A stretch of 64,000 nt of DNA from Variovorax paradoxus (GTDB lineage: Bacteria > Pseudomonadota > Gammaproteobacteria > Burkholderiales > Burkholderiaceae_C): positions 6,014,001-6,078,000 of the forward strand of contig CP063166.1 in the NCBI GenBank assembly GCA_016806145.1. The letters run 5' to 3'. Positions within the stretch are counted from its first letter, which is position 1. Every line of letters begins with the position of its first letter. Shown piece after piece: positions 9,810 to 11,459 of the stretch. The translations under genes were made by a program, and so were the position numbers. The notes under the pieces are model-generated. The model was not told the DNA's origin. It saw only the letters and a list, made by a program, of their open reading frames with translations, and ran no database searches.

Positions 9810-11459
9810 TCACATGCGGAAGATGCCGAACTTCGGCTCGGGGATCGGCGCGTTGCGCGCGGCCGCCAAGCCCAGCGCGAGCACGCGGCGCGTGTCGGCC
9901 GGATCGATGATGCCGTCGTCCCACAGCCGTGCGGTGGCGTAGTAGGGGTGGCCCTGGTCCTCGTACTGCTGGCGGATCGGCGCCTTGAAGGCCTCTTCCT
10001 CGTCGGCGCTCCACTGGCCGCCCTTGGCCTCGATGCCGTCGCGCCGCACGGTCGCGAGCACGCTCGCGGCCTGCTCGCCGCCCATCACGCTGATGCGCGC
10101 GTTGGGCCACATCCAGAGGAAGCGCGGGCTGTAGGCCCGGCCGCACATGCCGTAGTTGCCGGCGCCGAAGCTGCCGCCGATGATGATGGTGAACTTCGGC
10201 ACGTTGGCGGTGGCCACGGCCGTCACCATCTTGGCGCCATGGCGCGCGATCCCCTCGTTCTCGTACTTGCGGCCCACCATGAAGCCGGTGATGTTCTGCA
10301 GGAACACCAGCGGCGTCTTGCGCTGGCAGCACAGCTCGATGAAGTGCGCGCCCTTATGCGCCGATTCGGAGAACAGGATGCCGTTGTTGGCGACGATGCC
10401 CACCGGCATGCCCTCGATCTCGGCGAAGCCGCAGACCAGGGTGGCGCCGAAGCGGGCCTTGAACTCGTGGAACTCGCTGCCGTCGACCACGCGCGCGATG
10501 ATCTCGCGCACGTCGAAGGGCTTGCGCGTGTCGGTGGGGATCACGCCGTAGAGCTCCTCGCGCGGGAACGCGGGCTCGCGCACTCCACGCGTTCGGGCTG
10601 AGCTTGTCGAAGCCTGTCCCGGCACTTCGACAAGCTCAGTGCGAACGGATCTGGACAGGTTCAGGTTGGCCACCGCCGAGCGCGCGAGCGCCAGCGCATG
10701 CAGGTCGTTCTGCGCCAGGTGGTCGGCCACGCCCGACAGCCGCGTGTGCACGTCGCCGCCGCCCAGGTCCTCGGCCGTCACCACCTCGCCGGTGGCCGCC
10801 TTCACCAGCGGTGGGCCGCCCAGGAAGATGGTGCCCTGGTTCTTCACGATGATCGATTCGTCGCTCATCGCCGGCACGTAGGCACCGCCCGCGGTGCACG
10901 AGCCCATGACCACGGCGATCTGGCCGATGCCCTGGGCGCTCATGTTGGCCTGGTTGTAGAAGATGCGGCCGAAGTGCTCGCGGTCGGGGAACACCTCGTC
11001 CTGGTTCGGCAGGTTGGCGCCGCCCGAGTCGACCAGGTAGATGCACGGCAGGCGGTTCTGCTCGGCGATCTCCTGCGCGCGCAGGTGCTTCTTCACCGTC
11101 ATCGGGTAGTAGGTGCCGCCCTTCACGGTGGCGTCGTTGCACACCACCATGCAGTCGACGCCATTGACCCGGCCGATGCCCGCGATGATGCCGGCGCCGG
11201 GCGCGTCGCCCTTGTACATGCCGTGCGCGGCCAGCGGCGACAGCTCGAGGAAGGGCGTGCCCGGATCGAGCAGCTCGGCCACGCGCTCGCGCGGCAGCAG
11301 CTTGCCGCGCGCCGTGTGCTTGGCGCGCGCGGCCTCGCCGCCGCCTTGCGCAACCGCGGCGAACTGCGACTGCAGGTCGTCGACCAGCGCGCGCATGGCG
11401 GCGGCGTTGGCCTGGAAGTCGGCCGAGCGGGCGTTGAGTTTGGTTTCGAGTTGGGTCAT
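9810..11459 (-). CDS. liuB: Methylcrotonyl-CoA carboxylase carboxyltransferase beta subunit with in-frame REP insertion
   Basis: A 549-residue carboxyltransferase (family about 535). N-terminal half: [52 protein letters not shown]-terminal half: [67 protein letters not shown]. It transfers carboxyl from carboxybiotin on LiuD to methylcrotonyl-CoA. Start 11459 (MTQLETKL) matches the family; the extra upstream codons come from an intergenic repeat. Oddity: residues about 270-292 read [19 protein letters not shown], which is a translated palindromic repeat placed in the linker between the two domains without breaking the frame. Confidence 0.93.
10590..10648. repeat. REP-like palindromic element inside liuB
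   Basis: Inverted repeat with arms 10590-10614 and 10621-10648; the core CTTCGACAAGCTCAG (15 bases) is identical in both arms and the outer CGTTCG/CGAACG also pair. I recognise this family of TTCGACAAGCTCAG elements as a widespread dispersed palindrome in proteobacterial intergenic DNA. Here it lies inside a coding sequence, in frame, and is translated. Confidence 0.85.

Follow-up and report, generated by a model that had tools for sequence, protein, structure and literature searches.

The Rickettsia palindromic elements (RPE) are reportedly the subject of work by Ogata et al. from 2000 and 2002. In the passages cited here, RPEs are palindromes of 100-150 bp that are translated in frame in unrelated genes, and one of their carriers, R. 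japonica, is an intracellular organism with a GC content of 32.4% (PMC10969869, PMC3767692). The Variovorax repeat family described below resembles the RPEs of these passages in being translated in frame in unrelated genes, but at about 60 bp in its common form it is shorter, and it is set apart from them by description. The enterobacterial RU-1/2/3 repeats, according to the sections of Delihas (2007, PMC2759123) that concern them, are small mobile repeats of 103-168 bp with open frames within genes. The Variovorax family is likewise a small mobile repeat with an open frame inside genes, and differs from the RU repeats so described in host and length, a distinction that is again made by description and not by sequence.

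REPs of the GTAG and CGTC super-families, as portrayed in the relevant parts of Di Nocera et al. (2013, PMC3733652), are short stem-loops with compensatory changes that often form inverted dimers and are mostly intergenic, with some in ORFs. All of these traits are shared by the Variovorax family, which is distinguished from them by its tag, CCGTTC. The same parts of the paper list ORFs with internal REPs from several free-living bacteria, propose that these REPs encode flexible linkers or loops, and report REPs at about the same site of recB in two Xanthomonas. REPs within genes of free-living bacteria are thus already known from this source, which does not support the view, taken in a sequence-only reading of the present locus, that Rickettsia is the main source of known in-frame palindromes. 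The main text of the paper makes no mention of Variovorax, Acidovorax, Burkholderia or TTCGAC, and no statement of a fixed single reading frame was found in the parts considered here (PMC3733652). A literature search, the limited coverage of which makes it weak evidence of absence, turned up no paper describing this repeat family, LiuB, ClpV or AceF linkers that it enters repeatedly, or a frame that stays fixed, and the core sequence itself did not occur in the literature searched. As far as searched, what is new is the CCGTTC-tagged family, the fact that it has entered particular linkers more than once, and its frame bias. The free-living genus Variovorax extends the known cases of protein-coding palindromes and provides a natural replicate experiment, in which one family has repeatedly entered one linker and insert-free relatives are available for comparison. 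Two questions therefore become testable: do dispersed palindromes contribute functional protein sequence, and is the reading frame of a mobile repeat filtered by the peptide that it encodes?

The liuB element and its repeat family

The window, i.e. the whole 64,000-nt stretch that was analysed, is G000:C1:6014001-6078000 of a 9.4-Mb genome (G000) and contains liuB as an uninterrupted frame identified by profile search (Table 1). Among named genomes, the closest liuB matches belong to Variovorax. The best solved match of LiuB is the MCC beta subunit 3u9r (847 bits), and second, at 843 bits, comes 9tps, a chain annotated as propionyl-CoA carboxylase beta; in NCBIfam the sole match at E 1e-20 is mmdA, below its cut-off. 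The alignment with 3u9r runs nearly end to end, and every one of its 14 gapped residues falls at the insert site. Solved chains of the separate halves match LiuB residues 30-266 and 302-515, which places the insert between the carboxyltransferase halves, as the sequence-only reading had proposed. In an AlphaFold model derived from a shallow alignment of 31 rows (mean pLDDT 71.6), the insert lies in a low-confidence loop flanked by helices 252-266 and 300-305. Several further parts of the model also have pLDDT values below 50, so that it conveys only that the insert has no fixed structure in the model; the peptide is probably disordered.

Table 1. Features of the liuB locus, with positions in the window, and in-frame elements of the repeat family, with the genomes that carry them
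Feature	Position or genome	Strand	Evidence
liuB/mccB, methylcrotonyl-CoA carboxylase carboxyltransferase (beta) subunit, 549 aa	9810..11459	-	PF01039, E 1.5e-154; match to MCC beta 3u9r
Complete REP dimer of two mutually inverted hairpin units, with CCGTTC and CGAACG at its opposite ends	10590..10648	-	Core matches, arm complementarity, stem covariation
Arm 1, translated VRTELVE, GCA/TGC stem subtype	10625..10647	.	
Arm 2, translated STSSART	10590..10612	.	
Codons of LiuB residues 272-290 (19-residue peptide)	10590..10646	-	AlphaFold: residues 269-290 pLDDT <50
In-frame element in liuB	G000, G032, G038, G013		
In-frame element in clpV	G000, G032		NCBIfam ClpV/TssH above cut-off
In-frame element in gatB	G000		NCBIfam GatB above cut-off
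In-frame element in hrpA	G013		NCBIfam HrpA above cut-off
In-frame element in pepN	G013		NCBIfam PepN above cut-off
In-frame element in thyA	G013		NCBIfam ThyA above cut-off
In-frame element in purM	G013		NCBIfam PurM above cut-off
In-frame element in mfd	G013		NCBIfam Mfd below cut-off, partial piece
In-frame element in a haemagglutinin-like repeat protein (L383)	G013		Name by eye

The palindromic repeat that had been noticed in frame within LiuB is a complete element of two hairpins. Its core, CTTCGACAAGCTCAG, occurs exactly at 10598-10612 (-) and 10625-10639 (+), its 23-nt arms are 91% complementary with a spacing of 12 nt, and a 63-nt mRNA stretch containing it has a folding energy of -37.8 kcal/mol (z -6.9). 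At up to two mismatches the core has three matches in the window, against a shuffle mean of 0.18; the third copy (CTTCGACAAGCTCGG, one mismatch) is located at 24277-24291. Rfam gave no match in 10450-10800 at E 1. The element largely takes the place of the older linker rather than just splitting it, and no clean empty site was found. The window also contains a 52-nt inverted repeat (11470-11598, 87% complementary, 25 nt spacing) between liuB and the upstream gene, which by eye is acyl-CoA synthetase-like.

That the repeat is dispersed, as had been supposed, is borne out by 63 core matches per strand in G000 at up to one mismatch, compared with 4 and 4 for a reversed control. They cluster into at least 73 places, a few of which are chance matches, e.g. 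L206 and L217. The common unit runs from CCGTTC through a short stem and a GAGCYTGTCGA loop to the returning stem. Two inverted units make up about 60 bp, some copies have additional units, and inverted pairs are present in most of the elements listed. Among 110 arms that match the core exactly, the stem pairs -1/+1 and -2/+2 are formed in 109 and 110 arms, respectively (shuffled means 69% and 49%), by G-C, C-G, A-T, T-A and T-G, whereas the pair -3/+3 is formed in 54%, under the shuffled mean of 69%. The covariation of the inner pairs makes this a family of REP-type hairpins with a tag that is neither GTAG nor CGTC; membership of either super-family was rejected, CGTTC preceding the stem in 101 of the 110 arms. 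Like other REPs it has a hairpin unit of 20-40 bp with compensatory stem changes and many dispersed copies that are mostly extragenic and often inverted dimers. In G000, 4 of 75 places pass as lying within a frame that is coded on both sides, one of the four being a native motif; the coding filter is strict, and 'outside genes' is approximate for the remaining places. Seven repeat units are arranged in tandem with a 115-bp period at G032:C1:595792-596534, in the most repeat-rich genome.

The G000 genome has a single match to PF01797 (Y1_Tnp), a gene near C1:1513505, and the exact core is absent within 1.5 kb of it (3330-bp locus). The idea of a REP mobilised by a RAYT gene that is itself flanked by the repeat was therefore rejected. 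The piece containing this gene has no NCBIfam match at E 1e-20, and no transposase could be linked to the family in the G000 genome; a RAYT may mobilise it in trans.

Carriers of the insert

LiuB is matched in all 101 Variovorax genomes examined, in a few via a paralogue or fragment only, and its linker is readable in 92 genomes at 93 loci (one genome has two). Repeat-derived linkers are found in four of the 92, G000, G032, G038 and G013, and a search with the arms at up to two mismatches in the DNA of fetched liuB loci gave linker matches in these four alone. A conserved native linker, which would have refuted the sequence-only reading, was rejected: the other 88 genomes have different linkers that are shorter and variable, many of them Ala/Lys/Pro-rich. 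The repeat is likewise absent from the liuB linker in all 78 readable loci of the 80 from named genomes. The linker of the sister genome G024 is AQKAPAAAAKAEV and has no insert. Strain specificity of the insertion, a point that had been put forward for checking, agrees with its absence from close relatives but is too narrow a description, since carriers occur on at least three Variovorax branches.

Counted on both strands, the exact core TTCGACARGCTCAG occurs 228 times in G032, 129 in G044, 111 in G000, 73 in G038, 47 in G013 and no more than 24 times in every other genome of the genus. The insert is present in four of the five repeat-rich genomes (more than 40 exact cores) and in none of the 87 others with a readable linker (Fisher p 1.8e-6, for a cut-off picked after the data had been seen). 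The exception is G044, the liuB of which lacks the insert.

The insert peptide was also sought in other proteins, as the sequence-only reading had recommended, and two linker-seeded database searches yielded another 14 LiuB proteins whose inserts are related (P0002-P0014 and P0015), of which P0011-P0014 are near copies of one another. These searches, like the AceF search described below, used peptides of the observed frame (frame a), and the frame agreement of their matches is therefore not independent evidence. P0004 and its sister P0008 differ in the middle of the palindrome, with VRTEPSSART remaining, a difference that is read as collapse of the insert.

In-frame elements in other genes

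In a frame-neutral scan of the five repeat-rich genomes, the sequences to either side of 201 repeat places were scored for coding potential (75 in G000, 49 in G032, 34 in G013, 27 in G038 and 16 in G044, the latter four genomes being sampled in part). Twelve places pass, and 14 at a looser threshold, two of them native motifs. The liuB element of G032 is among the 201 places and falls under both thresholds though it is plain by alignment; together with the 12 from the scan it brings the real in-frame genic elements to 13 (Table 1). In these cases the palindrome is translated within an otherwise conserved gene, and the earlier suggestion that the family can enter tolerant gene regions holds for the loops of clpV, gatB and thyA among others. 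Residues absent from solved homologues number 6 in ThyA, 8 in PurM, 7 in GatB and 12, in three gaps, in Mfd.

The arms of all 13 genic elements share one frame class, VR.E[LP]VE and ST[SG]S or STGSGQ-like, and three to five of the six frames are stop-free in each of the 11 elements checked. Full agreement of 11 elements by chance would have a probability of about 3e-6, or 7e-6 if the liuB elements of G032 and G038 are counted once, figures that are rough and framed post hoc, assume equal odds for each open class and concern events that are perhaps not independent. An exception within an insert is the extra inner unit of the G013 liuB, which reads LRQAQDRP, as also in P0004, P0007 and P0015. 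Two candidates, L206 (FFDKRSKF, Mpl-like) and L357 (FDLFDKLG, TypA-like), were named by eye and, again by eye, dropped as native motifs. Their frame is the FDK one, which means that dropping them favours the one-frame reading, and with both kept the count is 13 of 15. L360 was rejected as a genic insertion because its position is a gene start and not within a gene. None of the 201 places was classed as a gene frame broken by a stop within the repeat, and disorder scores do not distinguish the frame in use for all elements.

Origin and retention of the inserts

It is probable that the genome's own mobile REP-like family entered the liuB linker and was kept there by frame selection, with independent entries in several species. 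A copy of the CCGTTC-tagged family would have inserted into a linker that is hypervariable, with most of the older linker lost around it. It would have been retained because the frame was kept, the frame used is free of stops and the peptide is small, polar and probably disordered. Multiplication of the family in some Variovorax would then have led to independent entry into the liuB linker and into loops of clpV, gatB, thyA, purM, mfd, hrpA and pepN, and selection would have purged insertions in other frames, leaving survivors that read VR.E.VE...STSSART or STGSGQ. The data show what the element is, that it is an insertion by comparison with relatives, that several lineages carry it and that its arms keep to one frame class. 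On the proposed account the liuB element would owe its presence to transposition and the frame bias would be due to purifying selection, and the LiuB with its insert is presumably produced and active. Tolerance of the insert is sufficient to account for the data, and the insert may possibly also be useful to the protein.

The main rival explanation for the repeated entry is site choice by the mobilising enzyme. If the enzyme targeted particular DNA in a fixed codon phase, site and frame would both reflect targeting rather than selection, and the finding that the liuB and clpV loops were each entered repeatedly would fit such a preference. So would the rare GCA/TGC stem subtype, two of the four G000 elements of which are genic (liuB and clpV). 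However, the flanks of the genic elements have no obvious common motif by eye and genic copies are few, and targeting is considered unlikely.

A broader reading, on balance doubtful, is that REP units are a recurrent source of ready-made flexible linkers: genomes with active REPs would convergently replace LiuB, ClpV and AceF linkers, and a second, unrelated palindrome would do likewise in the ClpV loop of other Variovorax. A REP arm in one frame would encode a benign linker (STGSGQ, STSSART, VRAEPVEAP). The clpV loop of G000 and G032 contains the CCGTTC-tagged REP, and the same loop in L281 (G096) and L277 (G024) contains, in frame, an unrelated palindrome with 42-nt arms that is translated LPP..GEG.GGG...PPPQPSPSGGG (L277 2657-2779, L281 2660-2782). 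Of 30 clpV loci fetched, 28 are readable: two have the REP, 20 the second half of the other palindrome's peptide or a close form of it, and six are Ala-rich. A plasmid search with the clpV peptide gave no match.

A further claim, that the peptide is kept for its benefit and REP-derived linkers have been exapted as useful flexible spacers, appears improbable. The REP does make up nearly the whole liuB linker, and outside Variovorax 29 AceF-like proteins have linkers of the VRAEP..STSS type, and in 24 of these proteins both interdomain linkers are of that type. Yet this search was seeded with a Rhizobacter AceF linker that carries the repeat peptide, and in a family AceF sample, the best 30 of 150 genomes by score for a query itself with the repeat, one of 23 readable loci is positive, so that the occurrence in AceF is patchy. 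The patchy distribution and the collapsed forms are equally compatible with tolerance. The AceF linkers of P0034, P0037, P0042 and P0043 contain VRAEPIT units in tandem followed directly by VRAEPVEAP, a pattern that resembles the amplification of a portion of a REP arm. In G000 an aceF-like E2 gene (L263, G000:C1:2710543-2712227) matches in two frames with the switch in an Ala/Pro linker, perhaps owing to a frameshift or sequencing error, and a second E2-like copy is found on contig C2 (L264).

Less probable still is a single old liuB insertion that was lost in most lineages, or an insert passed between species by homologous linker exchange. All liuB inserts have position and frame in common, G032 and G038 share residues after the insert (ARTGGVVPPQFPR) and a common origin of this pair passes the tree test (AU p 0.35), and the pair P0004/P0008 suggests that inserts can collapse. 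G000 is also slightly closer to G013 than to its sister in two of the stretches compared, with 95.8 against 93.3% identity in the left 120 nt and 97.5 against 95.0% in the far right 120 nt. The flank identities as a whole do not clearly point to an exchange of linkers among the carriers. Against this, a liuB DNA tree with the linker excluded places the carriers beside near relatives without insert on each of their branches, and a single clade of the four is rejected (p 4e-12). In a protein tree of 109 rows, database proteins included, the insert label changes 11 times, four of the changes being forced by well-supported branches, and L012, which has the insert, differs from L140, which has none, in the linker alone. 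Most insert-free linkers in the Burkholderiales loci read retain about 30 alignment columns, the inserts vary in stem subtype, spacer and form, and the carriers coincide with repeat-rich genomes.

An assembly error or a decayed gene, for which nothing was found in favour, has a negligible probability, given that the frame is intact and the core conserved, that assemblies of other species have related inserts at this position, and that the database protein P0002, which derives from a 1456-bp contig, has the same insert as the G000 LiuB and is identical to it in 334 of 335 residues.
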